A DNA stretch of 64,000 bases from an uncultured Ruminococcus sp. (lineage in GTDB: Bacteria > Bacillota > Clostridia > Oscillospirales > Acutalibacteraceae): the NCBI GenBank assembly GCA_902798755.1, contig CADBYC010000015.1, positions 17,499 to 81,498 of the forward strand, in the 5' to 3' direction. Every line of letters starts with the position of its first letter. Position 1 is the first letter of the stretch. A model generated the notes under the pieces. That model had not been told where the DNA came from, made no database searches, and worked only from the letters and a program-made list of their open reading frames with translations. The translations under genes and the position numbers were made by a program. Below are positions 11,802 through 28,415 of this stretch, in pieces.

Positions 11802-12611
11802 TTATATGCTTAAACCGTAGAGCTTCTTGACGTTCTCGCTGAGGATGAGCTTCATCTCATCATCGGACAGACCGAGATCGAAGAACATCTCCACCTCGTC
11901 CTTCGGGTGCCACATGGGGTAATCCGTGCCGAAGAGCACTCTGTCCGCACCGTAACGGCGAATGATCTCGGCGGTCTTGTCGAGCGGTACCCAGTACATG
12001 GTAGACGAGCAATCGACATACAGATTCGGGATACCCTTGAGCTCAAGGCTCGCTTCGTCCCACAGCGACCACCCGCCCATATGAGCGCCGATGATGGTCA
12101 GGTTGGTGTAGGTCTCGAGTATCGGGATCAGACGGTTGGTGTTGGAGTAATCATAGCGCTTGTCGCCTGTGTGCATGAGGATCGGCAAGCCGTATTCCTC
12201 GCACAGCTCATAGATCTTCAAACAGCGATAGTCGTCGATCTTGAACCGCTGGATATCGGGGTGGAGCTTCACGCCCCTGAGCCCAAGATCCACCAAATGC
12301 TGTACGTCGGCGCGCTGATCCTCGCTGTCGGGGTGGAGCGTACCCAGACCCGTTAATTTACCGTCGGAAGCGGCAACCGTCTGAGCGATAAAGCTGTTGA
12401 TGGAATTCACCTGCTTGGGGGTCGTCGCGACAGACTGCACGAGAGAATGATCAATCCCGCAAGCCTCATTTATCTTCATCAGACTGTCCGCGGTGCCGTC
12501 ACACTTCGCGACCGTGCCGTAAAAGGTATCGGTACCCGCGACCGCCTTGGCGGCGATCTTCTCGGGATAGATGTGACAGTGGGAGTCGATGATCTGAAAT
12601 CCGTTTCTCAT
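11802..12611 (-). CDS. Amidohydrolase family protein (amidohydrolase 2 type)
   Basis: A 269-residue TIM-barrel metal hydrolase. Metal-ligand motifs are DSHCHIYP at residues 9-16, GVKLHPD, ILMHTGD, GAHMGG and the C-terminal LFGTDYPMW. The family includes decarboxylases and lactone hydrolases such as ACMSD and LigJ types; the exact reaction cannot be assigned. Its ATG shares one base with the stop of the upstream ligase fusion (TGATG), so translation is coupled and the two products probably work on related compounds. It is the last gene of the T-box 1 unit, followed by a terminator. Confidence 0.82.
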   Translation of the reverse strand: MRNGFQIIDSHCHIYPEKIAAKAVAGTDTFYGTVAKCDGTADSLMKINEACGIDHSLVQSVATTPKQVNSINSFIAQTVAASDGKLTGLGTLHPDSEDQRADVQHLVDLGLRGVKLHPDIQRFKIDDYRCLKIYELCEEYGLPILMHTGDKRYDYSNTNRLIPILETYTNLTIIGAHMGGWSLWDEASLELKGIPNLYVDCSSTMYWVPLDKTAEIIRRYGADRVLFGTDYPMWHPKDEVEMFFDLGLSDDEMKLILSENVKKLYGLSI

Positions 12612-15136
12612 CAGGCAGTCACCACGCTGTTCGCCTTTTGCAGTCCGAGCTTCTCGACCGCGTCCTCGCGCATTTTGTACTTGAGGATCTTACCCGCGGC
12701 GTTCATCGGGAAGCTGTCGACAAAGTCGATATACCGCGGCACCTTATGGCGCGCCATATTCGCGGCGATATAGTCCTTCATCTCCTGCTCGGTCATGGTC
12801 TCGCCCTCTTTGAGGATGATGCAAGCCATGATCTCTTCGCCGTAGTTTTCATCGGGAACGCCGATGACCTGTACGTCGGAGACCTTCGGATTGGTATAGA
12901 TGAACTCTTCGATCTCCTTAGGGTAGATGTTCTCACCGCCGCGGATGATCATGTCCTTGAGTCGTCCCGTGATCTTATAGTAGCCGTCCTCGGTCTTGCA
13001 GGCAAGGTCGCCCGTATGGAGCCAGCCGTCCTTGTCGATGGCTTCGGCGGTCTCCTTGGGCATCTTATAATAACCCTTCATGATATTGTAGCCGCGGGCG
13101 AGAAATTCGCCGTTGACGTTGGGCGGGCACTCCTCCCCTGTCTCGGGATCGACGATCTTACATTCGATCTCGGGCAGCTCCTTGCCGACGGTGTTGACGC
13201 GCACCTCGATAGAGTCCTCGGTCGAGCTCATGGTACAGCCGGGAGAAGCCTCAGTCTGACCGTAGACGATGGTGATCTCGGTCATATGCATTTTATCGAC
13301 GACCTCGCGCATTTTGTCGATCGGACAGGGAGAACCCGCCATGATGCCCGTGCGCATATAGGAGAAGTCGGTTTTGGGGAAGTCGGGGTGCTCAAGCAGA
13401 GAAATGAACATTGTGGGAACGCCGTGGAAGGCGGTGATATGCTCGTTATTGATACAAGCCAGCGCGGGCTTGGGGCTGAAATACGGCAGGGGCAGGACGG
13501 TCGCGCCGTGGGTCATGGAGGCGGTCATCGCCAGTACCATGCCGAAGCAGTGGAACATCGGCACCTGGATCATCATGCGGTCGGCGGTGGACAGGTCCAT
13601 TCTGTCGCCGATATTCTTACCGTTGTTGACGATATTATAGTGGGTCAGCATAACGCCCTTGGGGAAGCCTGTCGTACCCGATGTATACTGCATGTTGCAG
13701 ACGTCGTCCTTGTCTACTAATGAAGCCATACGGTAGACCTCGCTCTTCGGGGTCTTGGCGGCATAGCCCATCGCCTTCTCCCACGTCAGGCAGCCCTTCT
13801 GTTCAAAGCCGACAGTGATGACGTTACGCAGGAACGGCAGACGCTTTGCGTGGAGCTGAGCGCCCTCTTTCACGCTCTCGAGCTCGGGACACAGACTGGC
13901 GATGATCTCGCCGTAGCTGGTGTCCTTCGCGCCCTGTGTGATGATCAGGGTGTGGGTATCGCTCTGCTTTAAGAGGTACTCCGCCTCATGGATCTTATAA
14001 GCGGTGTTGACGGTGACCAGTACAGCGCCGAGCTTGACAGTCGCCCAGAACGCGATGTACCACTGGGGTACGTTTGAAGCCCATACAGCAACGTGAGAAC
14101 CCGCCTTCACGCCCAAGGAGATCAGCACGCGGGCGAATTCATCGACGTCGTCGCGGAACTCGCTGTAGGTGCGGGTATAATCGAGAGAGGTGTATTTGAA
14201 CGCCAGCTGATCGGGGAATTCCTCTACCATGCGGTCGAGCACGTCGGAAAAGGTCGCGTCGATCAGGATCTCCTTCTTCCAGACGAATTTACCTGTGTGG
14301 CGGTTGTTCCAGTACAGGGCGGATTCGTTCTTCGATGTATCGGCGAACTGCTTCATGTAGCTGATGAACTGGGCGAAGATGATATCCATGTCGTCCAGCT
14401 CGGGCTCCCATGTGGGGTCCCATACCAAAGAGATAAAGCCGTCGTAGTTGACGGAGCGCAGGGCTTTCATGGTCTCGGTGATCGGCAGATCGCCCTCGCC
14501 GACCAAGCGGTATTCGATACCGTCGTCGGTCTTGACAGCGTCGTTGAGATGAACGTGACGGACATATGCGCCGAGGTTCGAAATGATCTTCGAGGGGCTT
14601 TCGCCGACAGTGAAGTAAGCGGCAGACATATTCCACAACGCCGCGACATAGTCGGACGCGAAATACTCGAGCGTATCGCGCAAAAGCGCCGTATCGGCAT
14701 ACAATCCGCGAGTCTCGATCAAGAGAGAGATCTTCTCCTTCTCCGCGTCGGGCAGAACGGCCTCGATCAGGTGCTTGGAGTTCTTGACCGCCTTCTCCTT
14801 ATCCTCATGAAACTCCGCGCGCAGGCGGATATTCGGGATATGGAGGTTAGAGGCGATACGCATACAGCGCTCGATCTCGGCGATCGCGTTGTCGAACTGC
14901 TCCTCGTCAGCGATATCGTTGATAACGTCGATACACGGCAGGGTCAGATCGCGGTCATACAGCATGCGCATGGTAGCCGCCGCCGAATAATCCTGAAAGA
15001 CCCCGCTCTTCTCACAGAACGCGGCATTATTGATGTTATGGGGCTCGATGCCCTCGAATTTGAAGTACTCAGCGGCTGAACAAAATTCTTCAAAAGAAAT
15101 ATCGTGCCAGCCCTTGGTAGAAAATGAAAATTTCAT
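12611..15136 (-). CDS. Fusion: sugar-phosphate-isomerase-like TIM barrel + acyl-CoA ligase
   Basis: An 841-residue two-domain protein. Residues 1-275 resemble xylose-isomerase-like/AP-endonuclease-2 TIM barrels (KFSFSTKGWHDISFEEF, LLIETRG, VRHVHLNDA, GEGDLP), but usual metal ligands look partly changed (ALWNMSAAY where Asp-x-His is common, LVWDPTWEP in place of a Glu motif). Residues 290-841 form a complete AMP-forming acyl-CoA synthetase: YTSGTTGFPKG near 485, YGQTEASP, TGDLACKTEDG, GRLKDMIIRGGENIYPKE and the catalytic Lys in NAAGKILKYKM. The acid substrate is unknown. It follows the LeuA-like gene across a family B repeat and is coupled to the amidohydrolase. Fusion is real in sequence: no stop or start signal separates the halves. 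Confidence 0.88.
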   Translation of the reverse strand: MKFSFSTKGWHDISFEEFCSAAEYFKFEGIEPHNINNAAFCEKSGVFQDYSAAATMRMLYDRDLTLPCIDVINDIADEEQFDNAIAEIERCMRIASNLHIPNIRLRAEFHEDKEKAVKNSKHLIEAVLPDAEKEKISLLIETRGLYADTALLRDTLEYFASDYVAALWNMSAAYFTVGESPSKIISNLGAYVRHVHLNDAVKTDDGIEYRLVGEGDLPITETMKALRSVNYDGFISLVWDPTWEPELDDMDIIFAQFISYMKQFADTSKNESALYWNNRHTGKFVWKKEILIDATFSDVLDRMVEEFPDQLAFKYTSLDYTRTYSEFRDDVDEFARVLISLGVKAGSHVAVWASNVPQWYIAFWATVKLGAVLVTVNTAYKIHEAEYLLKQSDTHTLIITQGAKDTSYGEIIASLCPELESVKEGAQLHAKRLPFLRNVITVGFEQKGCLTWEKAMGYAAKTPKSEVYRMASLVDKDDVCNMQYTSGTTGFPKGVMLTHYNIVNNGKNIGDRMDLSTADRMMIQVPMFHCFGMVLAMTASMTHGATVLPLPYFSPKPALACINNEHITAFHGVPTMFISLLEHPDFPKTDFSYMRTGIMAGSPCPIDKMREVVDKMHMTEITIVYGQTEASPGCTMSSTEDSIEVRVNTVGKELPEIECKIVDPETGEECPPNVNGEFLARGYNIMKGYYKMPKETAEAIDKDGWLHTGDLACKTEDGYYKITGRLKDMIIRGGENIYPKEIEEFIYTNPKVSDVQVIGVPDENYGEEIMACIILKEGETMTEQEMKDYIAANMARHKVPRYIDFVDSFPMNAAGKILKYKMREDAVEKLGLQKANSVVTA

Positions 15137-15164
15137 CGGTAATCACATACCTTTCAAATAATTC

Positions 15165-15325
15165 AGCCTTCCCCTTGAGGGGAAGGTGTCACCGTTAAGG
15201 TGACGGATGAGGTGAAAGCGTTTCCATCTTATCACGCTAATTGATATATCGGATAGGTTTCCACCTCATCCGACCAATTTGCCTGAGTCGGCAAATTGCC
15301 CACCTTCCCCTCGAGGGGAAGGCAG
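15165..15325. repeat. Family B element, copy 1
   Basis: Both ends carry the self-complementary CCTTCCCCTNGAGGGGAAGG; inside lie GGATGAGGTG and its inverse CCACCTCATCC. The element begins one to two bases after the LeuA-like stop codon and fills the gap to the ligase fusion. Looks like a MITE-type palindromic repeat. Confidence 0.8.
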
Positions 15326-15326
15326 T

Positions 15327-16697
15327 TTAATCCTCTTCGTAAACGATCTTGTTGACGGCGTTGATATAGGCGCGGACAGAAGCGCCGATGATATCGGTGG
15401 ACAGACCCGTACCGGAGTAGATCCTGCCGCCGACGCGCAGGCGTACCAGCGCGTTGCCCATCGCTTCCTTTTCCTGGGTGACGGTCTGGATCGAGAAATC
15501 GTCCAGCTCAAAGCGTCTGCCGATGATCTGCTCGATGGCGTGGAACGCGGCGTCGATGGGTCCGTCGCCGATGGCGATGCCCTGTACCGTCCTGCCCTCG
15601 CGGTTCAGAGAGATCTGAGCGGAGGATGAAATGCGGTTGCCGCTGTTGATGACATAGTTCTCGAGGGTGTAGGTCTCGGGCACCTGCAAGGCGGCTGACG
15701 CTATGATCGCGTCGAGCTCCTTGATACCGACGTTCTTCTTGCGGGCGATACGCAGGAACTCGTCATATACCTTCTTGATATCCTCGTCAGAGAGGTCGTA
15801 GCCTAATTTCTCGATACTCTCGCGGACGGTGTCGATGGTGTCGTTGATGGACAGGCGCACGCCGTCGTCCACGATCTCACGCGCGTTAACGGAGCGGGTC
15901 TTGCCGTTGATGATCCACTCGATCTGGTCAATGGTGCGGTGCAGCTCGGTGGTGCGGATATCGGCGGCGATACCGTAGTTCTCGCGGATATCCTTGATCA
16001 AAGCGCCGAATTCACGCAGCGGTGTCGCTTCACCGCCGATCGAGGTCTTGACGCAGGCGGCGCCGTTCTTGACGGCTAAGATCGCCGCGGCGGTCGCTAC
16101 GCCGTTTTTATTGTTGCACAGCACACCGACAGGGACGTCCGCGACCTCTGTCACGCGCACGACAAACGCCGCGAAATCGTCGGGCAAGAGGATCGCCGCG
16201 TCATCGCACAGGGTCACCTTGGAAGCGCCGGCTTCTACCGCTGTCTTGACAGCTTCTTTCAAGAAGGCTTCTTCGGCTCTGGTCGCGTCTACGGCGACGA
16301 ACTCAACGTCATCACAGACGGTCTTTGCTTTCGCGATCATCGCGCTGACGTAATCGCACATTTTATTCTGCTTCTTGTGAAGCGTGTACTCCATGATAGA
16401 AGAGGTCATCGGCAGCTCAATGCGGATACGCGGGTGAACAGCCGTCGAGAGCGCCTCAGCCGCGCGGTCGATCGCCGCGGGAGAGGTGGTCGCCGCTACC
16501 GACAGGACGGAATTCTTGACGAAAGAAGCCGCGGTACGCACCAACAGCGTGTCGGCTTTTACCGCACCGACCTCGGGTAGCTCTACAGCGTCTACACCCA
16601 GTCGTTCAAGCTTACGCGCGATCTCGAGCTTCTGCTTGAAGGTGAGATTAGATTTGGGATCGGATAAAGTCGTATCGGCGATCTTGATGTAGTTCAT
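15327..16697 (-). CDS. LeuA-like protein with regulatory domain but degenerate active site
   Basis: A 456-residue protein with the order of 2-isopropylmalate synthase: a DRE-TIM-like barrel (1-270), a linker, and a LeuA C-terminal leucine-binding-type dimer domain (from about 340: NYVINSGNRISSSAQISL, ...GIAIGDGPIDAAFHAI). The catalytic residues are gone: the TTLRDGEQ motif reads TTLSDPKS (9-16), the HxH metal ligands read LCN (193-195), and the conserved Glu strand reads FVAVDATR. The GIHQDG motif is absent. So it is probably not a synthase; it may be a leucine sensor, partner subunit or enzyme of another kind. The T-box leader upstream with a Leu-like specifier ties it to leucine supply. AGAGGA precedes the ATG. 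Confidence 0.85.
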   Translation of the reverse strand: MNYIKIADTTLSDPKSNLTFKQKLEIARKLERLGVDAVELPEVGAVKADTLLVRTAASFVKNSVLSVAATTSPAAIDRAAEALSTAVHPRIRIELPMTSSIMEYTLHKKQNKMCDYVSAMIAKAKTVCDDVEFVAVDATRAEEAFLKEAVKTAVEAGASKVTLCDDAAILLPDDFAAFVVRVTEVADVPVGVLCNNKNGVATAAAILAVKNGAACVKTSIGGEATPLREFGALIKDIRENYGIAADIRTTELHRTIDQIEWIINGKTRSVNAREIVDDGVRLSINDTIDTVRESIEKLGYDLSDEDIKKVYDEFLRIARKKNVGIKELDAIIASAALQVPETYTLENYVINSGNRISSSAQISLNREGRTVQGIAIGDGPIDAAFHAIEQIIGRRFELDDFSIQTVTQEKEAMGNALVRLRVGGRIYSGTGLSTDIIGASVRAYINAVNKIVYEED

Positions 16698-16796: not shown

Positions 16797-17120
16797 ATAA
16801 TAAAGTCCCCGAGGCATTTTCAGCCTCAGGGACGAATTCACTTCGCGGTACCACCCTGCTTACCGTATAAAACGGTCACTCTAAGGCTCTGACAAGCCCT
16901 CTGCCATGATAACGGGACAATCCGTAGCCGGTTACAATGCCGATCGGTTGAGATTGCCGCAGGCTGACACGCGTGTCAAGCCCTCGCAATGACGATCAAT
17001 AGTAGTTCGCCGACTCTGCTCCGAAATGAGACTCGCTCCTGCTGTCCTGCTGTCTCACACCGACCGACAGCTCTCTGAAAAGACCTTGTGTAAAAGCGAT
17101 AATTTCATCAACGCATTTAT
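16797..17120 (-). promoter_or_regulatory. T-box leader 1 (Leu-like specifier)
   Basis: Read on the minus strand: stem I with AGAGAG and GGTCGGTGTGA distal-loop sequence, the T-box GGTGGTACCGCG at 16844-16855, then a terminator GTCCCTGAGGC/GCCTCGGGGAC (16805-16833) with T-rich tail. Counting six bases before GGAGC, as in glycine T-box stem I, the specifier is CUC (Leu) at 17028-17030. It controls the LeuA-like gene. A family A element sits between stem I and the antiterminator. Confidence 0.88.
16943..16994. repeat. Family A element inside T-box 1
   Basis: CGGTTGAGATTGCC ... CTCGCAATGACG with an inner GCTGACACGCGTGTCAAGC palindrome. Position corresponds to the stem II/III region of the leader. 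Confidence 0.75.
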
Positions 17121-17263
17121 GTGGTTATTCAACTATAAGGTACTATATCACAACGAAAATCAATTGTCAACACTTTAACATACGAAAATTACGTTTCGGC
17201 TTTTATGCTCAATCAACGGAAAAGTACGCAGAAAATTATGGTGTTTTTGACAAGAGCTTCCAT

Positions 17264-17314: not shown

Positions 17315-18379
17315 TCAAACCTCAACGGTCCAGCCGAATTTGTCCTCGATCTCGCCCCACTGGATACCGGTGACGGTATCGTACAGGTGCTGGGACAGTT
17401 CGCCGATCTCGTTGTTGTTGACGATGTACTTGTGATCCTTGTAGCACAGCTCGCCGATCGGAGAGATGACCGCCGCGGTACCGCAGCCCCATGCCTCCTC
17501 GAGAGTGCCGTCGAGCATAGCGTTGCTGAGCTCTTCTACGGAGAGAAGTCTCTCGGAAACGGTGATACCCTCGCTCGCGAGCAGCTCGATGCAGGACTTA
17601 CGGGTGATACCGGGCAGGATAGAGCCGGTCAGCTTCGGGGTGACGATCTCGCCGCCGATCTTGAACATAACGTTCATCGCGCCGACTTCCTCGATATACT
17701 TGCGCTCTACGCCGTCGAGCCACAGAACCTGAGAATAGCCCTGCTGCTCAGCGCGCTCGCCCGCGCGGTTGGAAGCCGCGTAGTTGCCGCCGCACTTCGC
17801 GTAGCCTGTACCGCCGCGTACCGCACGAACGTCCTGATCCTCGATCATGATCTTGACGGGGTTAAGACCTTCCTTGTAGTAGGAGCCGACAGGAGAAGCG
17901 ATGATGATGAACTCAGCGTTGTGAACAGCGTGAACGCCTAAGCTCTCGTCGTTGCCGAACATGAAGGGGCGCAGGTACAGAGAAGTACCCTTGTCGGACG
18001 GCGTCCAATCCTGCTCCAAGCGGACGAACTCAATGAGCGCTTGCATGAAGTCCTCCTCAGGCATCTGAGGCAGGCAGAGACGCTCGGCAGAGTTATTCAT
18101 ACGGCGGATGTTCTCGATAGGTCTGAAGAGCTGTACCTTGCCGTCAGCGCGGCGATACGCCTTGAGGCCCTCAAAAATCTCGGAGCCGTAGTGCAGAACG
18201 GTGGAAGCGGGATGGATGGACAGGCGCTCGAAGGGCACGATACGGGGATTGTGCCAGCCTTCTTCGCTGTTCCAGCTCCAGCGGAACATGTGGTCGGTGA
18301 AGATCTTACCGAAACCGAGTGCGGAAGAATCGGTAGGCTTCTCCTTCGGATTCGGGTTTAAGGTAACTTTGATATCCAT
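17315..18379 (-). CDS. ilvE: Branched-chain amino acid aminotransferase
   Basis: Fold-type IV PLP aminotransferase that interconverts Val, Leu and Ile with their 2-oxoacids. The 354-residue protein starts MDIKVTLNPNPKEKP and has GFGKIFTDHMF, the GSEIFEGLKAYR segment, YLRPFMFG, KCGGNYAAS (which carries the PLP lysine region) and EEVGAMNVMFKI. It is the long, BCAT2-like type typical of Firmicutes. The frame can be read 27 residues further upstream, but that part comes from a repeat element; AGGAGGAATGTTATT before ATG 18379 fixes the start. It lies downstream of the 2-oxoacid oxidoreductase genes on the same strand, separated by a family B-like repeat. Confidence 0.95.
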   Translation of the reverse strand: MDIKVTLNPNPKEKPTDSSALGFGKIFTDHMFRWSWNSEEGWHNPRIVPFERLSIHPASTVLHYGSEIFEGLKAYRRADGKVQLFRPIENIRRMNNSAERLCLPQMPEEDFMQALIEFVRLEQDWTPSDKGTSLYLRPFMFGNDESLGVHAVHNAEFIIIASPVGSYYKEGLNPVKIMIEDQDVRAVRGGTGYAKCGGNYAASNRAGERAEQQGYSQVLWLDGVERKYIEEVGAMNVMFKIGGEIVTPKLTGSILPGITRKSCIELLASEGITVSERLLSVEELSNAMLDGTLEEAWGCGTAAVISPIGELCYKDHKYIVNNNEIGELSQHLYDTVTGIQWGEIEDKFGWTVEV

Positions 18380-18394
18380 AATAACATTCCTCCT

Positions 18395-18570
18395 ACGTAT
18401 GCCTCCCTTTGGTAAAGGGAGGTGGGCAATTTGCTTGCAAATCGGTCGGAGGGATTGCATATTTGACCGAGCGTCAGCGAGATACCATAATCATTTGGTT
18501 GGTCGCTTCGCTCATTTTGTACAATCCCTCACCCGCTTATGCGGGAGCTCCCTTTACCAAAGGGAGCCTG
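18395..18570. repeat. Family B-like element (CTCCCTTT ends)
   Basis: CTCCCTTTGGTAAAGGGAG at one end and CTCCCTTTACCAAAGGGAG at the other, with GTCGGAGGGATTG and CAATCCCTCAC inside. It starts four bases after the stop of the gamma subunit gene and ends just before the ilvE ribosome site. Confidence 0.8.
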
Positions 18571-18574
18571 AAAC

Positions 18575-19113
18575 TTATCCTTCAAACTCCGCGCCCATCC
18601 GGATCGCCTTGAAGTTGACGTCCTTCATGTTGGCGCGCTTGGCGGGAATGACCTTATCGAGAGCGGCGCGGATCCCCTCCTCGGTATAGTCGCCCGTCTC
18701 TTTGAGGAGCTTACCGACGATGATCATGTTGGCGAGGTTGCCGAGCTTTTCGTCGGAAGCCATCTTGGTAGCGGGTATATAGAACACCTTGACGTCGTCG
18801 CGCTCGACCTTGCGCTCGATCAGGGTGGAATCCGCAAAGATCATGCCGCCCGGAGTGACCTTGCTCTCAAAGCGGTCGAGAGAGGGCAGGTTCATGGCGA
18901 CGAGAATGTCGGGGTTAGAAACGATCGGAGAGCCGACAGGGGTATCGGACACGATGACGGAGCAGGATGCCGTACCGCCGCGCATCTCGGGGCCGTAGGA
19001 CGGCAGCCAACTTACCTGCTTTTCTTCGATCAGGCCCTTGTAAGCGATGAATTTGCCGGCGAAGAGGATACCCTGACCGCCGAAGCCGGAGAACAACATA
19101 TTTTTAGCGCTCA

Positions 19114-19114
<1 letters not shown>
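18575..19114 (-). CDS. 2-oxoacid:ferredoxin oxidoreductase, gamma subunit
   Basis: A 179-residue subunit of the pyruvate/ketoisovalerate oxidoreductase gamma family: [18 protein letters not shown] at the N-terminus, [19 protein letters not shown], and GLLKET-type C-terminus. It completes a heterotetrameric enzyme with the next three genes. Its ATG overlaps the beta-subunit stop by one base (TAATG). The four-gene order delta-alpha-beta-gamma with an IlvE downstream best fits the VOR (3-methyl-2-oxobutanoate) or KOR type. Confidence 0.9.
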
Positions 19115-19871
<757 letters not shown>

Positions 19872-19872
<1 letters not shown>

Positions 19873-20936
19873 TACTTGATACCTCCGTTAACATCTTGGA
19901 TTGCCCTGAGCACCTGCTCGGGATCGGGGATCATACCGCCCGCGCGGTTGCAAAGGGTAACAGGACACTTAGACTCAATGGCGAGCTGTACGTCCTCGAT
20001 CATCTGACCCATGTTCAGCTCGACAGAGATGAACGCCTTCGCGTGCTCCGCGGCTTTCTTGAAGGGAGCCTTCGGGAACGGCCAGAGGGTGATCGGACGG
20101 ATCAGACCTACCTTGATGCCCTGCTTTCTTGCTTCATCGACAGCGTTCTTACTTACGCGCGCGGCAATACCGAACGCGGCGATGACGATATCAGCGTCCT
20201 CGACCTTGTATTCCTCATACATGGTCTCGTTTTCTTCGATGACCTTATAGCGGTCATAGCGCTTGAAGTTCAGCTCCTCGAGCTCCTCGGGAACGAGAGA
20301 GAGGGAGTTGACGATATTGTGCTCACGCTCGAGCTTAGTGCCTGTGGTCGCCCACGGCTTCTCGGGAGCGGGATTGACTTCGAGGTCGTCGATGGAAACA
20401 GGCTCCATCATCTGACCCATGGTACCGTCAGCGAGCACCATCGAGGTCACGCGGTATTTGTCCGCGAGCTCAAAGCCCTTGACGGTCAGCTCAGCCATTT
20501 CCTGGACGGAAGCGGGAGCGAGGACGATCATGTGATAGTCGCCGTGACCGCCGCCGCGGGTGGACTGGAAGTAGTCGGACTGAGAGGGCTGAATGCCGCC
20601 GAGTCCGGGGCCGCCTCTCTGTACGTTGACAACGAGAGCGGGAAGGTCAGAGCCCGCGAGATACGAGATACCCTCGCCCTTCAGAGAAACGCCGGGAGAG
20701 GAAGAAGAAGTCATAACTCTTTTGCCTGCGCTTGCTACGCCGTAGACCATATTGATCGCGGCGATCTCAGACTCAGCCTGCAGGAAGGTACCGCCGATCT
20801 TGGGCATGACCTTAGCCATGTACGCGGCGATCTCGGTCTGAGGGGTGATCGGATAACCGAAGTAATGCATGCAGCCTGCCTTGATAGCGGCGGCGGCGAT
20901 CGCTTCGTTACCCTTCATCAAAATCTTATCTGCCAT
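19872..20936 (-). CDS. vorB: 2-oxoacid:ferredoxin oxidoreductase, alpha subunit (VorB type)
   Basis: The 354-residue alpha subunit contains the pyrimidine-binding domain (GCMHYFGYPITPQTE, QAESEIAAINMVYG, MTSSSSPGVSLKGEG) and the transketolase C-terminal-like domain (GLIRPITLWPFP, ELNMGQMIEDV). Length and motifs are those of proteins named VorB, 3-methyl-2-oxobutanoate oxidoreductase. Substrate choice between branched 2-oxoacids and 2-oxoglutarate cannot be proven by eye; the ilvE neighbour favours branched acids. It starts nine bases after the ferredoxin gene and overlaps the beta subunit by one base. Confidence 0.9.
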
Positions 20937-20945: not shown

Positions 20946-21152
20946 TCACCTTTCTACCTTGATAATGCAGTCGGGGCACATCATATAGCAGGACGCGCAG
21001 CCGATACATTCACTCATATCGGTGCACTCTACGGGGTGATGACCCTTCTTGTTGATCTTGTCTGTGGCGATCTGCAAAATCCCCTTGGGGCAAGCGTCCA
21101 CACACAGCGCGCAACCTTTACAGTTGTCGGTCTTGAATGTCAGTTTTGCCAT
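20946..21152 (-). CDS. 2-oxoacid oxidoreductase delta subunit (2x[4Fe-4S] ferredoxin)
   Basis: A 68-residue ferredoxin with two cluster motifs, CKGCALCVDACPKG and CIGCASCYMMCPDC. It is the electron-transfer subunit of the oxidoreductase that follows. An upstream in-frame ATG at 21158 is two codons away, but GAAGGGAAAATGTAT spacing favours ATG 21152 (MAKLTFKTDNCKGC). It is the first gene of the four-gene operon. Confidence 0.92.
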   Translation of the reverse strand: MAKLTFKTDNCKGCALCVDACPKGILQIATDKINKKGHHPVECTDMSECIGCASCYMMCPDCIIKVER

Positions 21153-21236
21153 ATACATTTTCCCTTCTTTATCATAATGTATTATTATGTATATCTATTT
21201 CGCTTGAAATGTTCCCTTTGAGTCATAGATAGCAAG

Positions 21237-21407: not shown

Positions 21408-22070
21408 TTATATCGGCTTCTTCTGGAGCTTCAAGCGGAATAATGGGCTGATTTTATCCTTCAGTTCATCGTAAAGATGTGTTTCGACGGTGGTGAGCAC
21501 TACGGGCAGGCCCGAAAGCTCGGAAACTTCCTGAGCGTACTTCACAGAGGAAAGAACGTCCTGAGCGTCGGTCTCCCCCGCCAGATTCGAATTGTTGATG
21601 ATTCCCGTGAACGGGATACCGCACGCCCACTCGATCTCGCGCATGACCTCGATGGTGGACTCAGCGTCGGGAGTCAGCGGACGGAATTTGTTGACAACCA
21701 TCAGCATTTCGTAGTCGTTCTCATTTTTAATCGCGTCGCGCAATCTGCCCAGCGCGTAAGCGCCCCTGTCGTCGCCGCCGATATCCATGATGACCGATAA
21801 GCTCCTGTCGTCGGTGATCGAATACAGGTCGGCGGGCATGGACGGCAGATCGACGTTGGAGGACGCGAAGTCCGAGCAGATCAGACGGATGTTATGCTCT
21901 TTGAATTCATCCTCGCTGTCCTTAGAACGGAAATAGGGATTGACGATATCGAGGTCGGCGATCGCAACATTGTCCCGCTTTTTGGCGAGATCAAGCGCCA
22001 TGTTGACGGCGATATTGGTCTTTCCCGAGCCGTAGTGACCGCAGAGTATGGTCAGACGTTTGTAGGTCAT
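21408..22070 (-). CDS. P-loop ATPase of the CobQ/MinD/ParA type
   Basis: A 220-residue protein beginning MTYKRLTILCGHYGSGKTN, a deviant Walker A motif of the SIMIBI class, followed by ADLDIVNPYFRS and MDIGGDDRGAYALG. Proteins like this often travel with VOR/KOR operons in Clostridia; their role is not established (maturation or metal/cluster handling would be guesses). The frame runs 63 residues further upstream, but that part is encoded by a repeat; GGAGGTTTTA before ATG 22070 sets the start. It lies between the XRE-cupin ligase and the oxidoreductase genes on the same strand. Confidence 0.82.
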   Translation of the reverse strand: MTYKRLTILCGHYGSGKTNIAVNMALDLAKKRDNVAIADLDIVNPYFRSKDSEDEFKEHNIRLICSDFASSNVDLPSMPADLYSITDDRSLSVIMDIGGDDRGAYALGRLRDAIKNENDYEMLMVVNKFRPLTPDAESTIEVMREIEWACGIPFTGIINNSNLAGETDAQDVLSSVKYAQEVSELSGLPVVLTTVETHLYDELKDKISPLFRLKLQKKPI

Positions 22071-22081
22071 TAAAACCTCCG

Positions 22082-22262
22082 GATTTTGAAGTTGAAAGTT
22101 GACAGTTGAAAGTGGAAAATTGTGGGAAACGCTTCGCGTTTTGAAGTTGACAGTTGAAAGTTGAAAGTGGAAAATTGTGGGAAACGCTCGCGTTTTGATT
22201 GATATGGAATTCATTTGAGGGCGAAGCCCTCCCTTAACTTTCCACTTTCCACTTTCCATTTT
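22082..22262. repeat. Family E repeat (GAAAGTTGAAAGTGG type)
   Basis: A direct duplication containing GACAGTTGAAAG, GGAAAATTGTGGGAAACGC and CGCGTTTTGA; a CTTTCCACTTTCCAC run closes it next to the ligase stop codon. The duplicated unit is about 60 bp. Confidence 0.7.
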
Positions 22263-22265: not shown

Positions 22266-24554
22266 CTATAAAAGGTTTCTCTGTATCTTGCCGCTGGTGG
22301 TCTTGGGCAGGGATTCGCGGAAAACGACGATACGCGGGTACTTATACGGAGCGGTGTGGGTCTTGACGTAGTCCTGGATCTCCTTCTTCAGCTCGTCGGT
22401 AGGCTCAGTACCCTTGACGAGCACGATGGAAGCCTTGACGACCTGACCGCGCACGGGGTCGGGAGCGGCGGATACGCCGCATTCGAGTACGTAAGGCAGC
22501 TCCATGATGACCGATTCGATCTCGAACGGTCCGATACGGTAGCCTGACGATTTGATAACGTCGTCAGCTCTGCCGACATACCAGAAGAAGCCGTCCTCGT
22601 CACGCCACGCAAGGTCGCCCGTGTGGTAGTAACCGTTGCGCCAGTTCTTGCGGGTGGAATCGACGTCGTTGTAGTAGTACATCGCCAGACCGCACGGCAT
22701 ACCCTCTGAAATGTTGATACAGATCTCGCCGGGCTCGCCGTCGGGAACGTCGTTGCCATCCTTGTCGATAAGGTGGATATCATAGATCGGAGAGGGCTTG
22801 CCCATCGAGCCGATCTTATGCGGAGCGCCGATCATGTTGCAGATGATGACGGCGGTCTCGGTCTGACCGAAGCCCTCCATGATCTGCAGTCCCGTCAGCT
22901 TCTCAAACTGGTTATATACCTCGGGGTTCAATGCTTCGCCCGCGGTGGTCATGCGCTTGACGGAGGAGAAATCGTACTTAGAGATATCCTCCTTGATCAT
23001 CATACGCAGCATGGTAGGCGGCGCGCAGAAGGTGGTGATATGATACTTTGCGAACATAGGCAGGATATCGTCGGCGTGGAAGCGGTCGAAATCATAGACG
23101 AACATCGGCGCTTCACAGAACCACTGACCGTACAGCTTGCCCCATGCCGCCTTCGCCCAGCCTGTGTCGGAGATGGTGAAGTGCAGACCGTCGGGGTCGA
23201 CGTTGTGCCAGAAGTGAGCGGTCATGAAGTGACCCAGCGCTAATTTATAGCTGTGGGCGGCGATCTTCGGATAGCCCGAGGTGCCCGAGGTGAAGTACAT
23301 GAGCATGATATCGTCGCCGCAGGGAGTGCTCTCCTTGCGCTCAAAGTGTGAGGAGAAGAGCTTGTACTCTTCGTCAAAGTTGCGCCAGCCCTCGCGCACG
23401 CCGTTGACCATGATGCGCTTTAACTGCGGATAATTCTCCATCGCTTTCTCGACCTCTTCGGCGGAGTAGCCGTCGCCCGTGCAAATGATTGCGGACACGC
23501 CCGCCGCCTTGAAGCGGTATTCAAGGTCGTGGGACTGGAGCTGGTTGGTCGCGGGGATCGCGATCGCGCCGAGCTTGTGCAGACCGATGATCGCGAACCA
23601 GAACTGATAGTGGCGCTTTAAGATCAGCATGACGCGGTCGCCCTTGCGGATACCTAAGCTCTTGAAGTAGTTCGCGCACTGGCAGGAAGCGTGGCGAATA
23701 TCGGTGAAGGTGAAGCGGCGCTCGGTCTTGTCGCCCGCGACATGGATCATCGCCAGCTTCTCGGGATCTTTATAGGAAATGGCGTCGATGACGTCATAGC
23801 CGAAGTTGAATTTCTCGGTATTCTTAAAGGTGACCTTGGTGGGCGTACCGTTTTCGTTGACCTCATAATCGACGAACTTCTTCCAGACGCGCTCCTTGGT
23901 GTCGGTGTTCTCGACCTTCTTGGGAGCGATCGCCTTGGTGTGAGTCAGCTCGGGGATCGGCTCGCCCTTGGGATTGAGGACGATGGCGTAGAAGATACAG
24001 TCCTCTTCGCCGACCGCCATCTCGCCGTGGGGAGTGTTGGAGTCGAAGTAGATGGTATCACCGGGGCCTAAGATCTCCTTATGATCGCCGACCTGTACCA
24101 TAAGCTGACCCTCGATGACGATGTCGATCTCCTGACCGTCGTGGGTCGTCAGCTCCATGGGCTTGTTCTGCGCCTCGGGGTTGTATTTGCTCTTGACGTA
24201 GAGCGGCTCCGCGATACGGTTCTGGAAGGCGTAGGCGAGGTTATAATAGGTCATGCCGTGCGCCTGGCTCACCTTCTGCCCTGCCCCTCTGCGGGTCACG
24301 GTGTAGGATTTCAGGTTCGGAGAGATACCCTCGATGATCTCGGTGACGTTGACGTTCAGCGCCTGAGAGACCAGATAGATGAAGGCGAAGTTCAAGTCCT
24401 GCTCGCCCGATTCACAGGCGATGTACTCCTCCTCGGTGACGTCGGTAAACGCCGCCATCTCAGCGACAGTCTTGCCCTCAAGCTCTCGAAGCTCTCGGAT
24501 ACGCGCCGCCATCTCCTTTATTTTGGTGTCCAAAGCAGTCGTTTTGTTTTCCAT
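22266..24554 (-). CDS. XRE-HTH + cupin + AMP-forming acyl-CoA synthetase fusion (paralogue 1)
   Basis: A 762-residue three-part protein. Residues 10-75 form an XRE-type helix-turn-helix (IRELRELEGKTVAEMAA...). Residues 110-195 form a cupin (HDGQEIDIVIEGQLMV, GPGDTIYFDSNTPHGE). From about 230 on it is a medium-chain-type acyl-CoA synthetase: YFTSGTSGYPK near 423, GFGQTETAV, GRADDVIKSSGYRIGPFE, and the catalytic Lys in KTTSGKIQRN. Upstream in-frame ATGs exist; GAGGTTATGTGT before ATG 24554 is the best start. T-box leader 2 precedes it. The HTH-cupin half resembles PuuR-like regulators, so the protein might bind DNA or sense a ligand as well as activate an acid. Substrate unknown; branched short-chain acids are inferred. 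Confidence 0.9.
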   Translation of the reverse strand: MENKTTALDTKIKEMAARIRELRELEGKTVAEMAAFTDVTEEEYIACESGEQDLNFAFIYLVSQALNVNVTEIIEGISPNLKSYTVTRRGAGQKVSQAHGMTYYNLAYAFQNRIAEPLYVKSKYNPEAQNKPMELTTHDGQEIDIVIEGQLMVQVGDHKEILGPGDTIYFDSNTPHGEMAVGEEDCIFYAIVLNPKGEPIPELTHTKAIAPKKVENTDTKERVWKKFVDYEVNENGTPTKVTFKNTEKFNFGYDVIDAISYKDPEKLAMIHVAGDKTERRFTFTDIRHASCQCANYFKSLGIRKGDRVMLILKRHYQFWFAIIGLHKLGAIAIPATNQLQSHDLEYRFKAAGVSAIICTGDGYSAEEVEKAMENYPQLKRIMVNGVREGWRNFDEEYKLFSSHFERKESTPCGDDIMLMYFTSGTSGYPKIAAHSYKLALGHFMTAHFWHNVDPDGLHFTISDTGWAKAAWGKLYGQWFCEAPMFVYDFDRFHADDILPMFAKYHITTFCAPPTMLRMMIKEDISKYDFSSVKRMTTAGEALNPEVYNQFEKLTGLQIMEGFGQTETAVIICNMIGAPHKIGSMGKPSPIYDIHLIDKDGNDVPDGEPGEICINISEGMPCGLAMYYYNDVDSTRKNWRNGYYHTGDLAWRDEDGFFWYVGRADDVIKSSGYRIGPFEIESVIMELPYVLECGVSAAPDPVRGQVVKASIVLVKGTEPTDELKKEIQDYVKTHTAPYKYPRIVVFRESLPKTTSGKIQRNLL

Positions 24555-24624: not shown

Positions 24625-24679
24625 AGTGCGGGCAACGCCCGCCATTCGTTATTCACTATTCATTATTCATTCTTCAGTC
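24625..24679. repeat. ATTCATTATTCATT low-complexity repeat
   Basis: GGGCAACGCCCGCCATTCGT then TTATTCACTATTCATTATTC. The same run with GGGCAGCGCCCTCCCGC occurs at 16751-16799 after T-box 1, also between a T-box terminator and the start codon. Confidence 0.6.
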
Positions 24680-24688: not shown

Positions 24689-25105
24689 AGCGCCCATCCC
24701 AAAGTAATAACTTTGAGACGAGCGCATAACACCCGCGGTACCACTCAAATTGCAGGCTGATATCTCAGCACTGCCTCTCTCAGGGTCTATCTCTATCAAT
24801 CGTCATTGCGAGGCATCTATGCCGCGGCAATCTCAACCGATTATTACGTACAATCGTCATTGCGAGGCATTTATGCCGTGGCAATCTCAACCGATTATTA
24901 CGTAATGACAATTGATATTCTAACCCCCAGACATTCACGCAGTCATCACGAGGGAGGTCTAATCATATCGTAGGATACTTTCTTCTCCCCGGCTCAGAAG
25001 CTACAAACACGGAATCCATCACAGAAGCTCGCACCGACCGCTTCTTCTCTGAGTGATGAGAGGACCGCGCCCTCTTCGTCATAGCCTTTATCTCGTCTAA
25101 TGTTA
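24689..25105 (-). promoter_or_regulatory. T-box leader 2
   Basis: Minus strand: GACGAAGA stem I start, AGAGAAGAAGCGGTCGGTGC distal loop, GAGCCGG, the T-box GAGTGGTACCGCGGG at 24732-24746 and a terminator with GGGCGC and T-rich tail (24689-24726). The specifier, six bases before GAGCC, reads GUA (Val) at 25002-25004; UGU or UUU are other possible frames. It controls the XRE-cupin ligase at 22266-24554. Two tandem family A copies sit in the middle. Confidence 0.88.
24796..24902. repeat. Two tandem family A elements inside T-box 2
   Basis: TCGTCATTGCGAGGCATCTA and TCGTCATTGCGAGGCATTTA each end in GGCAATCTCAACCGATTATT. The two copies differ at a few positions and lie head to tail between the GGGGTTAGA and AGACCC arms of the leader. 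Confidence 0.85.
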
Positions 25106-25199
25106 TCACATTATTCGCAGTTTGTCAATATTTATTTAGCGTATGCTGTAGCAAGCTGTAGTAAGCGCCGTTGCTAACGCATATATCAGCCTACTATAT

Positions 25200-25470
25200 C
25201 TTCCTAATTCCTAACGCCTAACTCCTAAGTAAATACTGATTAATTACTATGTCATTGCGAGGGCTTTAGCCCGTGGCAATCCCACAAAGAGAGAATCCGA
25301 CGTTTCTGTCCCTATTTGTTGAGGAGTTGTCCAAATGCAACAGCGCAGGGGGAGCGTAGCGATTGGCTAAGCGCCACTACTGGGATTCCCACGGTCGCTA
25401 AGTCGCTCCCTCGGAATGACAGCGAAAATGCAAACTGCATTAATCAGTATTTACCTAACTCCTAACTAAA
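25200..25470. repeat. Cluster of family A and CCTAACTCC repeats
   Basis: 25203-25228 and 25450-25468 carry CCTAACTCCTAA-type runs. 25250-25284 is a family A element (GTCATTGCGAGGGCTTTAG, GTGGCAATCCCAC). 25378-25425 is a diverged, inverted one (GGGATTCCCACG, CCTCGGAATGACAGCG). No gene is visible between T-box 2 and the second ligase. Confidence 0.65.
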
Positions 25471-25483
25471 AGAGCCGCGCGTC

Positions 25484-27748
25484 TTAGAGCTTATTGCGCT
25501 GGATCTTGCCACTGATGGTCTTGGGCAGGCTGTCCTTGAAGACGACGATACGCGGGTACTTATACGGAGCGGTGTGCTTCTTGACGTAGTCCTGTATCTC
25601 CTTCTTCAGCTCGTCGGTGCCCTCTTTGCCCTTGACGAGCACGATGGAAGCCTTGACGACCTGACCGCGCACCTCGTCGGGAGCGGCTGATACGCCGCAT
25701 TCGAGGACGTAGGGCAGCTCCATGATGACCGACTCGATCTCGAACGGTCCGATGCGGTAACCTGAGCTCTTGATAACGTCGTCGGTCCTGCCGACGTACC
25801 AGAAGTAGCCGTCCTCATCGCGCCACGCGGTATCGCCCGTGTGGTACATGCCGTCGTGCCATGCTTCCTTGGTCGCTTCTTCATTATTATAGTAGCCCTT
25901 GAACAGTCCGCAGGGAACACGCTTGTCGGTGCGGATAATGATCTCGCCCGGCTCGCCGTCGGGTACGGGATTGCCGTCGGGGTCTACGATGTCGATGTCA
26001 TAGCCGGGGATGGGCTTGCCCATCGAGCCGAGCTTGGGGGTGGTGCCGAAAAGGTTGCCGATCGTGAGGGTGGTCTCGGTCTGACCGAAGCCCTCCATGA
26101 TCCTCAGCCCCGTCGCCTTGCGGAACTGGCGCCATACCTCGGGATTGAGCGCCTCGCCGGCCGTCGTCATATGGACGATACTCGACAGGTCATACTTAGA
26201 GATATCCTCCTTGATCATCATGCGCAGCATGGTAGGCGGCGCGCAGAAGGTGGTGATATGGTATTTTGCGAACATCGGCAGGATATCGTCGGCGTGGAAG
26301 CGGTCGAAGTCATAGGTGAACACCGCGCCCTCGCTGAGCCACTGACCGTAGAGCTTGCCCCACAGCGCCTTGCCCCAGCCTGTGTCGGAGATAGTGAAGT
26401 GCAGACCGTCGGGGTCTACGCCGTGCCAATATTTGGCAGTTACATAATGTCCGAGCGCGTATTTGTAGCTGTGATTCGCGATCTTCGGATAGCCTGTCGT
26501 ACCCGAGGTGAAGAACATGACCATGGTATCGTCGCCGCAGGGAGTGTCCACGGTGCGATAGTAATGGGTGGAGTACATATCAAATTCCGCGTTGAAGTCA
26601 TGCCAGCCCTCTCTCTTGCCGCCGACCAGGATCTTCGTTGTCAGGGTCGGGCAGGTCTTCTGCGCTTCATCAACGGAGTCAGCTACAGAGCCGTCGGCGG
26701 TCGCGACGATAGCGGACACGCCCGCACTTTGGAAGCGGTACTCGAAGTCGTGCGCGAGGAGCTGGTTGGTCGCGGGGATTGCGATCGCGCCGAGCTTATG
26801 CAGAGCGAGCATAGAGAACCAGAACTGATAGTGGCGCTTTAAGACGAGCATGACGCGGTCGCCCTTCTTGATACCCAGACTCTTGAAGTAGTTCGCGGTC
26901 TGATTGGAGCGGCGCTTCATGTCGTTGAAGGTGAAGCGGCGTTCGGTCTTGTTCTTGTCGATATGCAGCATGGCGAGCTTGTCGGGGGTGTTGTTCGCGA
27001 TAGCGTCCACGCAGTCGAACGCAAAGTTGAATTTATCCTCATTGCGGAAGCTGATGGCTTTCAGGCAGCCGTTCTCGTCCTCGAGGGTGCGGACGAACTG
27101 ACCCGTGATCGCGGATTTCTTCTTGACGTGCGCCTTCATGACCTCGTCGTCGGCTTCCTCGACCTCTTTCTCACCGGGCAGGATGATGGCGATGAATTTG
27201 ACGTCCTCGCCGCCGATGGCGATCATGCCGTGAGGGGTGGACGAATTATAGTAGATGCTGTCGCCCGCCTGCAACTCCTCAAAGTTGTTGCCGATCTGGA
27301 TCTTCATCTTGCCCGACAGGACGAAATCGAATTCCTGTCCCGCGTGCTTGGTCAGATGGATCGGCTTATTCTGAAGCGATTCGTTGTAGTCATACTGGCA
27401 GAAGTACGGCTCAGCGATCTTGTTCTTGAACATCGGAGCGACATTGACGATGGAAATGCCCTCCTCCTCGGCGGTTTGTCTGCCGCCGCCGCGGCGGGTA
27501 ACGGTGTAGCTTTTGAGTCGAGCCGACTCGCCCTCGAGGATATCGGTGATACCTAAACCGAACGCCAGCGCGCACTTGTGGATAAAGGTGAAGGGAAAAT
27601 CCTCCGTACCGTTCTCATAAGCGTTGTACTCGGATACGGTGACCTCGGTCTTTTCCGCCATTTCCTCGACGGAGAAGCCGCTGATCTCGCGCATTTCACG
27701 GATACGCTTAGCGACCTCGAGCAGTTTTTCGTTGTCTACTACTGACAT
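25484..27748 (-). CDS. XRE-HTH + cupin + AMP-forming acyl-CoA synthetase fusion (paralogue 2)
   Basis: A 754-residue paralogue of the protein at 22266-24554 with the same three parts: XRE helix-turn-helix (IREMREISGFSVEEMAEKTE), cupin (HAGQEFDFVLSGKMKIQIGN, AGDSIYYNSSTPHG) and acyl-CoA synthetase (FFTSGTTGYPK near 416, GFGQTETTL, GRTDDVIKSSGYRIGPFE, KTISGKIQRN). The last 100 residues of both are almost identical, while the sensory halves differ more. AGGAGGAACACATT precedes ATG 27748. T-box leader 3 lies upstream, with a 335-bp repeat-bearing stretch between leader and start. The duplication took the leader along. Probable role: activation of a second branched or aromatic short acid. Confidence 0.9.
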   Translation of the reverse strand: MSVVDNEKLLEVAKRIREMREISGFSVEEMAEKTEVTVSEYNAYENGTEDFPFTFIHKCALAFGLGITDILEGESARLKSYTVTRRGGGRQTAEEEGISIVNVAPMFKNKIAEPYFCQYDYNESLQNKPIHLTKHAGQEFDFVLSGKMKIQIGNNFEELQAGDSIYYNSSTPHGMIAIGGEDVKFIAIILPGEKEVEEADDEVMKAHVKKKSAITGQFVRTLEDENGCLKAISFRNEDKFNFAFDCVDAIANNTPDKLAMLHIDKNKTERRFTFNDMKRRSNQTANYFKSLGIKKGDRVMLVLKRHYQFWFSMLALHKLGAIAIPATNQLLAHDFEYRFQSAGVSAIVATADGSVADSVDEAQKTCPTLTTKILVGGKREGWHDFNAEFDMYSTHYYRTVDTPCGDDTMVMFFTSGTTGYPKIANHSYKYALGHYVTAKYWHGVDPDGLHFTISDTGWGKALWGKLYGQWLSEGAVFTYDFDRFHADDILPMFAKYHITTFCAPPTMLRMMIKEDISKYDLSSIVHMTTAGEALNPEVWRQFRKATGLRIMEGFGQTETTLTIGNLFGTTPKLGSMGKPIPGYDIDIVDPDGNPVPDGEPGEIIIRTDKRVPCGLFKGYYNNEEATKEAWHDGMYHTGDTAWRDEDGYFWYVGRTDDVIKSSGYRIGPFEIESVIMELPYVLECGVSAAPDEVRGQVVKASIVLVKGKEGTDELKKEIQDYVKKHTAPYKYPRIVVFKDSLPKTISGKIQRNKL

Positions 27749-27884
27749 AATGTGTTCCTCCTGTAAAATATTAGGATTCAACAATCAATAATCGAAATTG
27801 TGATAAAGCAGTCGGCTCGGGTATACAAGCAGGGTATCACCACACAGGTCTGATCTTTCGGAAAAAGACCTCGCAGTAGCTCTC

Positions 27885-28051
27885 AGCCAATCATCGTTCG
27901 CCCAAAGGGACCCCGCAACTCCCCGAGTTGCGGGGAGAGGAGGAACCGCCACACGAGGTCAAAGTGTTCCATTCGGATACACTTACCGAGTACGGCGAGT
28001 GACGACGAGGGAGAGCCTTGCGTGGGTGCTGTTAGCCAATCAGCGTTCGCC
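27885..28051. repeat. Near-perfect direct repeats bracketing family D copy 2
   Basis: AGCCAATCATCGTTCGCC (27885-27902) and AGCCAATCAGCGTTCGCC (28034-28051) match at 17 of 18 positions. Between them lies family D copy 2 at 27938-28010 on the plus strand and a CCCCGCAACTCCCCGAGTTG palindrome. Confidence 0.6.
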
Positions 28052-28080
28052 ATGCGGCTCCGCTTCTTGGACGAGCACCG

Positions 28081-28415
28081 CAAAAAAACGCCCGCCTCAA
28101 TACACATTGAGACGAGCGTGAAAAATCACATCCGCGGTACCACTCAACTTGCAGTAATGCTACTGCCACTCTCGGGGTCTGTATATCGGTTGAAATTGCC
28201 ACAGCTCCTATGGAGCTTCGCAATGACAGTTTATATCTAACCCCTATGCCTTTACGCAGCAATCACGGGAGATATCTACTAAGCAAACGCCGTTCGGGTC
28301 TCCGGCTCGGAAGGGATGGGTACTCAGGTCAACTTTGTCGGCTCGCACCTGCCGCCGACTCTCTGGAAAAGTTCAGCCTTGACCGTCTTCGTCACAGCCT
28401 TTATCAATTGTCTAA
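28081..28415 (-). promoter_or_regulatory. T-box leader 3
   Basis: Minus strand: GACGAAGACGGTC, CAGAGAGTCGGCGGCAGGTG distal loop, GAGCCGG, the T-box GAGTGGTACCGCGG at 28132-28145, and a terminator ending in seven T (28081-28120). By the same count as in T-box 1 and 2 the specifier is AUC (Ile) at 28315-28317; ACC, CCC or UAC nearby cannot be excluded. It controls the second XRE-cupin ligase. A family A element at 28184-28231 sits between stem I and the antiterminator. Confidence 0.87.

Follow-up and report, generated by a model that had tools for sequence, protein, structure and literature searches.

A gene block with three T-box leaders in an uncultured Ruminococcus that may build branched-chain amino acids from branched short-chain acids

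This work concerns a gene block located on the minus strand, within positions 28476-11766, of a 64,000-nucleotide (nt) stretch of DNA (the window) from contig CADBYC010000015.1 of an uncultured Ruminococcus sp. (assembly GCA_902798755.1). The block comprises three units, likely transcription units, each opened by a T-box leader, and the specifier codons of these leaders are those of Ile, Val and Leu. It very likely encodes a reductive-carboxylation pathway for the branched-chain amino acids, split by amino acid between the three units, through which the host, a bacterium of gut or rumen, probably builds Ile, Val and Leu from scavenged branched short-chain acids; the pathway assignment of the Ile and Val units can be made with even a little more confidence. 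A preliminary reading of the window, made from the letters alone (the sequence-only reading), had described two XRE-cupin acyl-coenzyme A (CoA) ligases, one TIM-barrel ligase fusion, a complete VOR-type 2-oxoacid:ferredoxin oxidoreductase (VOR) and IlvE on one strand. Pfam, NCBIfam and open reading frame (ORF) evidence confirmed that all these genes are present, and added a LeuA-like protein, a P-loop NTPase and an amidohydrolase, which that reading had not listed.

Three units opened by T-box leaders

The Ile unit leads from its T-box (28404-28105) into ligase 1, which combines XRE, cupin and AMP-forming ligase parts. The Val unit leads from its T-box (25091-24711) into ligase 2, the P-loop NTPase, a 70-residue 2[4Fe-4S] ferredoxin, the alpha, beta and gamma subunits of VOR and IlvE, and the Leu unit from its T-box (17120-16825) into the LeuA-like protein, the TIM-barrel ligase and the amidohydrolase. 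All three leaders matched the Rfam covariance model RF00230, including Stem I, the T-box core and the antiterminator. The Leu leader scored over the gathering score of 93 (105.1 bits, E 1e-22); the Ile leader (73.2 bits, E 2e-14) and the Val leader (67.9 bits, E 4.5e-13) scored below it. The three T-boxes are genuine. In each leader, a terminator hairpin with a T tail (28119-28088 for Ile, 24725-24690 for Val and 16833-16805 for Leu) overlaps the 3' side of the antiterminator, and these three hairpins are the top three rows of the window's terminator list.

Promoter-like sites were found ahead of each leader, all on the minus strand. The Ile unit displays TTGACT-16-TAAAAT (10/12, with TG before the second hexamer) and another site upstream, also 10/12, both within 28421..28476; the Val unit displays TTGACA-17-TAACAT (25100..25128, 10/12) and the Leu unit TTGACA-17-TATAGT (17142..17170, 11/12). 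Terminator-like sites from the consensus scan follow IlvE (17293-17270) and the amidohydrolase (11788-11766). Taken alone, these scans prove little, terminators being overall near chance (18 found versus 14.7 expected, standard deviation 3.9) and promoters somewhat above it (19 versus 11.2, standard deviation 3.3); their weight comes from the exact placement of the sites at the T-boxes. The claim that three units start with T-boxes was thus borne out by RF00230 matches, promoter-like sites and terminators together. No terminator match was found by the scan between ligase 1 and the second T-box, and the Ile unit may therefore extend into the Val T-box.

The position of each specifier was fixed by the Rfam alignment, in which the codon stands one base ahead of the four-pair helix preceding GAGC. 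This gave AUC (Ile, 28317-28315), GUA (Val, 25004-25002) and CUC (Leu, 17030-17028). Reading the Ile leader as Tyr (UAC) or Thr (ACC) was excluded by the fixed Rfam offset and by homologues having A after AUC. The conservation of the specifiers was evaluated in the best 80 of at least 588 stretches encoding a relative, plus 60 regions from genomes of the order, using a script that scored structure, gave a small bonus to a purine after the codon and ignored codon identity. ORFs were taken when the match started at query residue 60 or before and, for ligases, also reached residue 400 or beyond, shorter pieces being dropped; counts include the window's leaders and exclude 4 duplicates. The ligase 1-type leaders read AUC (Ile) in 102/102 readable cases, the ligase 2 leaders Val in 51/51 (44 GUA, 7 GUC) and the LeuA-like leaders Leu in 18/18 (14 CUC, 4 CUG). 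In the Val and Leu units, the amino acid stays constant although the third base of the codon differs between leaders, in support of both the reading frame and the amino acid's role. Both strands of the helix adjacent to the codon change (GAAG/CUUC, GGAG/CUCC, GAGG/CCUC).

Ten automatic readings were wrong parses and were reread by eye (L011, L032 and L043 for Leu; L014, L094, L121 and L124 for Ile; L026, L050 and L072 for Val), and the 22 lowest-scoring automatic readings were rechecked and all stand. Leaders that were unreadable or devoid of a core amounted to 31/133 for ligase 1-type genes, 6/57 for ligase 2 and 9/27 for LeuA-like genes; two ligase 1 leaders (L030, L079) were truncated by contig ends, and the contig edge was too near for two ligase 1-type genes and one LeuA-like gene. 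The sequence-only reading had named unrelated specifiers as one of the outcomes that would speak against its proposal; those observed are Ile, Val and Leu, and the proposal was not refuted. No readable leader has a specifier for Phe, Tyr or Trp, and on this ground a role of the ligases in activating aromatic acids was rejected. Six other T-boxes in the genome precede alaS, pheS, thrS, trpE, a serine acetyltransferase and a PLP (pyridoxal phosphate) enzyme, as named from Pfam.

All three T-box leaders contain a short repeat, TCATTGCGA ... GGCAATCTCAACCGA or a form differing by one base, in one orientation or the other; the Val leader has two copies, and the Ile leader of L011 is shorter. The same repeat also occurs between the S-adenosylmethionine (SAM) riboswitch aptamer and metK. 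Copies were located at 24803-24894, 16944-16992, 28186-28226 and 33375-33416 of the window, with parts at 1715, 25252, 38112 and 51501, and the repeat seems to settle in riboswitch linkers, leaving them intact. The SAM riboswitch itself (33556-33462), upstream of the S-adenosylmethionine synthetase gene (33220-32042), is ordinary. On the plus strand, a sub-threshold Rfam match to rli61 (10371-10469, 35 bits versus a gathering score of 50), largely a terminator-like hairpin, is probably due to chance.

Enzymes of the block and the proposed route

Ligase 1 (25484..27748, minus strand; Pfam HTH_19, Cupin_2 and AMP-binding) comprises 754 residues from the ATG at 27748 and is a predicted 2-methylbutyryl-CoA synthetase. 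Ligase 2 (22266..24554, minus strand), 63% identical to it and of the same XRE, cupin and AMP-forming ligase composition according to Pfam, is a predicted isobutyryl-CoA synthetase; its ORF is open from the GTG at 24656, with ATG 24554 as the likely start judged by context. The best NCBIfam model for both is MbcS (NF047394), with 445 bits for ligase 1 and 422 for ligase 2, below the curated cut-off of 850; judged by these scores, they are related to MbcS and are not filed as members of its family. The closest Protein Data Bank (PDB) sequence to ligase 1 is 3etc (E 2e-186), over the ligase half only (residues 235-752), which we take to be Macs of Methanosarcina acetivorans, the numbering being consistent with this. 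As far as the consulted portions of the two papers go, Macs prefers 2-methylbutyrate as its substrate (PMC10455477), while MbcS accepts both 2-methylbutyrate and isobutyrate but uses isovalerate poorly (PMC10026030). Ligases 1 and 2 are thus closest to enzymes acting on 2-methylbutyrate and isobutyrate, the acids predicted here for ligase 1 and ligase 2, respectively.

The distribution of specifiers among ligases is consistent with such a division. In a FastTree of 191 ligases, which gives local support only and in which long branches were flagged, a single change accounts for the read labels (106 Ile, 47 Val). At a level of 85% or more, the ligase 1 group from the best 80 relatives plus the window (n=68) is distinguished from ligase 2 (n=54) by thirteen positions; twelve of them fall in the XRE-cupin half and one, position 459 of P0001, in the ligase half. 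This residue, mapped by counting by hand on the alignment, is Gly in 68/68 of the ligase 1 group and, duplicates included, in 38/38 further ligases with an Ile specifier, whereas it is Ala in 54/54 ligase 2 sequences; in the Val enzyme, a bulkier side chain at 459 would match the smaller acid. An Ile T-box also precedes other XRE-cupin ligases (L109, L115, L123, L125, L147, L148 and L149), for which the available stretch contains no VOR. The neighbours of L109, the one such locus scanned, are SfsA, a deacetylase and an acyltransferase; L147 is a third ligase, additional to the tandem pair of genome G127, and L148 (G135) and L149 (G285) lie on a different contig from the other fused ligase. In more distant ligases (54-62% identity to ligase 1; L128, L131-L134, L136, L137 and L139-L146), no T-box core was found within 700 nt.

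The enzymes expected to act on the activated acids lie downstream of ligase 2, on the same strand. The VOR is complete, since alpha (19872..20936; NCBIfam NF005507, 546.6 bits, over the cut-off of 399), beta (19114..19872, the thiamine pyrophosphate subunit; Pfam TPP_enzyme_C) and gamma (18575..19114; Pfam POR) subunits are accompanied by a 2[4Fe-4S] delta subunit of 70 residues (20946..21158), an ORF with two CxxCxxCxxxC motifs; among them, only alpha exceeds the cut-off of a VOR model. The branched-chain aminotransferase IlvE (17315..18460) exceeds the cut-offs of TIGR01123 (ilvE_II) and NF009897. The P-loop NTPase (CbiA/ParA-like, 21408..22259; Pfam CbiA, E 2e-7) probably starts at 22070; its predicted model, with a pLDDT (predicted local distance difference test) of 88, has as best PDB folds the SRP-type (signal recognition particle) NTPases at a template modelling (TM) score of about 0.55, a broad match only, and one may guess that it serves iron-sulfur loading or VOR activation. 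Gene order was compared in 46 loci among the best 80 relatives, with at least 10.5 kilobases (kb) available from the start of ligase 1, counting genes on the same strand within 11 kb. The NTPase and the double ferredoxin motif were each present in 44/46 loci, VOR alpha-beta-gamma in 43/46, IlvE in 36/46 and ligase 2 in 32/46. The relatives of the scan are mostly titled as Ruminococcus, Oscillospiraceae, Ruminococcaceae or Clostridia, with a few Lachnospiraceae or Erysipelotrichaceae.

The Leu unit is built differently. Its first gene (15327..16697, minus strand; Pfam HMGL-like and LeuA_dimer) encodes a protein with a LeuA-family fold, according to a predicted model (pLDDT 86.9, predicted TM score 0.60), and a retained LeuA dimer domain (PF08502, E 1e-30) that is well conserved across 27 sequences; it scores below the cut-off of all NCBIfam LeuA models. 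RDGEQ and HxH are the catalytic and metal-binding motifs of LeuA. Each was found in 0/27 aligned sequences, the window's included, although seven sequences retain the Arg position, and L029 and L069 retain one of the two His residues. We propose that this protein lost the condensation motifs and acts as a leucine-sensing regulator. The next gene (12611..15136, minus strand) fuses a xylose-isomerase-like TIM barrel to an AMP-forming acyl-CoA ligase (Pfam AP_endonuc_2 and AMP-binding), a predicted isovaleryl-CoA synthetase. It lies downstream of the LeuA-like gene in 30/30 cases with sufficient DNA, and 21/35 of its matches span barrel and ligase, 4 starting at a locus edge. As MbcS is poor with isovalerate, a separate ligase would be expected for Leu, and the Leu unit has indeed one of a different type; use of isovalerate by this enzyme is fairly likely, mainly on the basis of its unit's T-box. 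The unit ends with an amidohydrolase (11802..12611, minus strand; Pfam Amidohydro_2, E 5e-34).

From a mechanistic point of view, T-boxes raise transcription as uncharged tRNA accumulates. Low charged tRNA-Ile would thus increase ligase 1 and the activation of 2-methylbutyrate; low charged tRNA-Val would increase ligase 2, acting on isobutyrate, together with the shared VOR and IlvE; and low charged tRNA-Leu would increase the TIM-barrel ligase, acting on isovalerate, together with the LeuA-derived protein and its leucine-regulatory domain. VOR, presumed to run here in the carboxylating direction, would draw on reduced ferredoxin to join CO2 to the acyl-CoA, and IlvE would aminate the resulting 2-oxoacid; both, although located in the Val unit, would serve all three acids. 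The earlier proposal that the T-boxes turn on each ligase as its amino acid runs short is supported by the matching specifiers, as a prediction from sequence. More tentatively, each amino acid might be subject to two layers of control, the T-box for transcription and the added parts of the ligases as sensors of amino acid or acyl group, that is to say the XRE-cupin half in ligases 1 and 2 and the dead LeuA as leucine-sensing partner of the isovalerate ligase; this joint reading is doubtful at present. If true, the feedback on the lost LeuA reaction would have moved to acid activation.

The classical pathway and competing explanations

Completeness of the host assembly is 89.97% and its contamination 2.43%. 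Searches of this assembly, about 90% complete, found no IlvC, IlvD or acetolactate synthase, with controls positive in 14/14 genomes, and no LeuB, with controls positive in 10/14. No true LeuA was seen in the host, the HMGL-family proteins found being the LeuA-like one and another with a carboxylase domain. We then considered 297 genomes of the order, made up of the host plus genomes drawn with a completeness of at least 90%. A fused ligase was defined as a match running from query residue 12 or before to residue 430 or beyond; counts of fused ligases, made among the matches listed, are lower bounds, and two fused ligases in a genome are not necessarily a ligase 1 and ligase 2 pair. IlvC was absent, without correction for kinship, from 27/29 genomes with at least two fused ligases versus 96/268 others (Fisher 1.2e-9), and from 75/103 genomes with any fused ligase versus 48/194 others. 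Acetolactate synthase was absent from all 27 genomes with at least two ligases and no IlvC, the host included, and present in 7/7 IlvC-bearing genomes, two of them with two ligases. LeuB was absent from 49/52 genomes with a LeuA-like match versus 58/245 others, again uncorrected for kinship, the match being defined by score (E 1e-60 or better), motifs aside; such a match was present in 29/29 two-ligase genomes, 27 of them without LeuB. Four genomes of the host's genus were sampled: G000 and G194 have two ligases and neither IlvC nor LeuB, whereas both genes are present in G248 and G266, which do not have two ligases.

The sequence-only reading had taken these genes to encode the branched-acid route. 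This is supported by the specifiers, by the missing classical genes and by the nearest enzymes of ligases 1 and 2, the acids themselves being predicted substrates. Most two-ligase genomes lack the classical genes looked for; in some genomes the route is an addition, not a replacement.

Several points weigh against the proposed pathway. Ligase 2, NTPase, VOR alpha, beta and gamma, and IlvE occur together in only 28/46 loci. No T-box core was found within 700 nt for 27/133 ligase 1-type, 6/57 ligase 2 and 8/27 LeuA-like genes. Ligases without a read T-box are scattered through the tree and, treated as a group of their own, bring the changes needed by all labels to 25; moreover, the difference at residue 459 may stem from a single event. 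The TIM-barrel ligase is over no NCBIfam cut-off among the matches listed, its best being PRK12583, below cut-off. VOR homologues also accept other 2-oxoacids and work in both directions. A weak point of the model is the supply of VOR and IlvE when only Ile or Leu is short, which is hard to explain because readthrough from the Ile unit still meets the Val terminator. Lastly, the genes missing from the host were sought in an assembly about 90% complete, the 2x2 genome tables ignore kinship, two genomes with two ligases (G075, G260) retain IlvC, acetolactate synthase and LeuB, and 21/24 tested genomes with a fused ligase and IlvC also carry IlvA or CimA.

The last of these points bear on the alternative that survives best, in which the route is mainly a facultative salvage beside classical synthesis and the host draws most of its Ile, Val and Leu from elsewhere. 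The incompleteness of the host assembly speaks for it, as do the classical genes kept in the two two-ligase genomes and in most of the tested single-ligase genomes with IlvC. If the ligase replaced the supply of Ile specifically, a loss of both IlvA and CimA would be expected in genomes with a fused ligase and IlvC; it was seen in 3/24 versus 0/30 controls (p = 0.08), and Ile-specific replacement was not shown. Together with G075 and G260, this makes the ligase a probable addition for salvage in some members of the order. This comparison covered 24 of 28 eligible genomes, G001, G091, G165 and G213 being left out as their matches held stops; the controls were 30 hand-picked genomes with IlvC and no fused match, and the CimA of G216, below cut-off and truncated by a contig end, was counted as present. 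Against this alternative stands the lack of IlvC in 27/29 genomes with at least two ligases, all 27 also lacking acetolactate synthase, and we consider it unlikely.

The same genomes bear on another possibility, namely that the ligases make branched acyl-CoA primers for branched-chain fatty acids, the T-boxes reporting scarce Ile or Val as scarce primer precursor. The nearest NCBIfam model, MbcS, indeed feeds branched-chain fatty acid synthesis in Staphylococcus, according to the part of the source available (PMC10026030). Ligase 2, however, shares one unit with VOR and IlvE, and of the 29 genomes with at least two ligases, 27 have neither IlvC nor acetolactate synthase and 27 have no LeuB, which leaves this explanation with little probability. 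Amino acid degradation, with an oxidative VOR and conversion of acyl-CoA to acid, is a use of VOR known from peptide fermenters, but it is very improbable here: T-boxes activate genes at amino acid shortage, the opposite of what degradation calls for, the three specifiers all match, and none of the classical synthesis genes sought was found in the host.

Relation to known systems

The synthesis of branched-chain amino acids by carboxylation of branched acids, on which the proposed pathway is founded, is already known biochemistry. Within the open-licence literature searched, T-box control of acid ligases and a LeuA devoid of catalytic motifs look new, no T-box control of acid ligases and no LeuA pseudoenzyme having been recognised there. 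The locus offers candidate genes for all three acids together and a codon-level prediction of the pairing between ligase and acid, T-box specifiers being used to assign enzyme substrates. Branched short-chain acids are important to fibre-digesting bacteria, as stated in the part consulted of PMC9486477, and the need for them could become predictable from sequence across many uncultured gut bacteria. The LeuA-like protein is a possible case of a biosynthetic enzyme converted to a regulator.

In rumen anaerobes, isovalerate, isobutyrate and 2-methylbutyrate are carboxylated to Leu, Val and Ile, according to work cited in the consulted portion of PMC7356843, whose references name ruminococci. The three acids and their products are the same as here; that portion deals with physiology, whereas genes and a regulation are proposed here, with one ligase per acid, each under its own T-box. 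Rumen methanogens likewise convert 2-methylbutyrate to Ile and isovalerate to Leu, as reported in an extract of PMC10658910. T-box control of branched-chain amino acid synthesis is known in Bacillales and Clostridia (PMC2494555, seen in part), and in both cases the T-boxes precede genes supplying branched-chain amino acids. By contrast, the targets given in that part of the source are amino acid biosynthesis, tRNA ligases and transporters, and the terms 'CoA ligase', 'acyl-CoA' and 'oxidoreductase' do not occur in its main text.

At the level of the enzymes, ligases 1 and 2 resemble Macs of M. acetivorans (3etc) and MbcS of Staphylococcus aureus in their ligase half and, as predicted here, in their branched short-chain acid substrates. 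They differ in that the match to 3etc is limited to the ligase half (residues 235-752), that MbcS feeds fatty acid synthesis and that the window ligases fall under the MbcS cut-off. Finally, the LeuA-like protein shares with 2-isopropylmalate synthase LeuA the same fold and the C-terminal LeuA dimer domain; it differs from LeuA by being devoid of RDGEQ and HxH, by the position of its gene ahead of an acyl-CoA ligase and by its genomic context, 49/52 genomes with a match being without LeuB.

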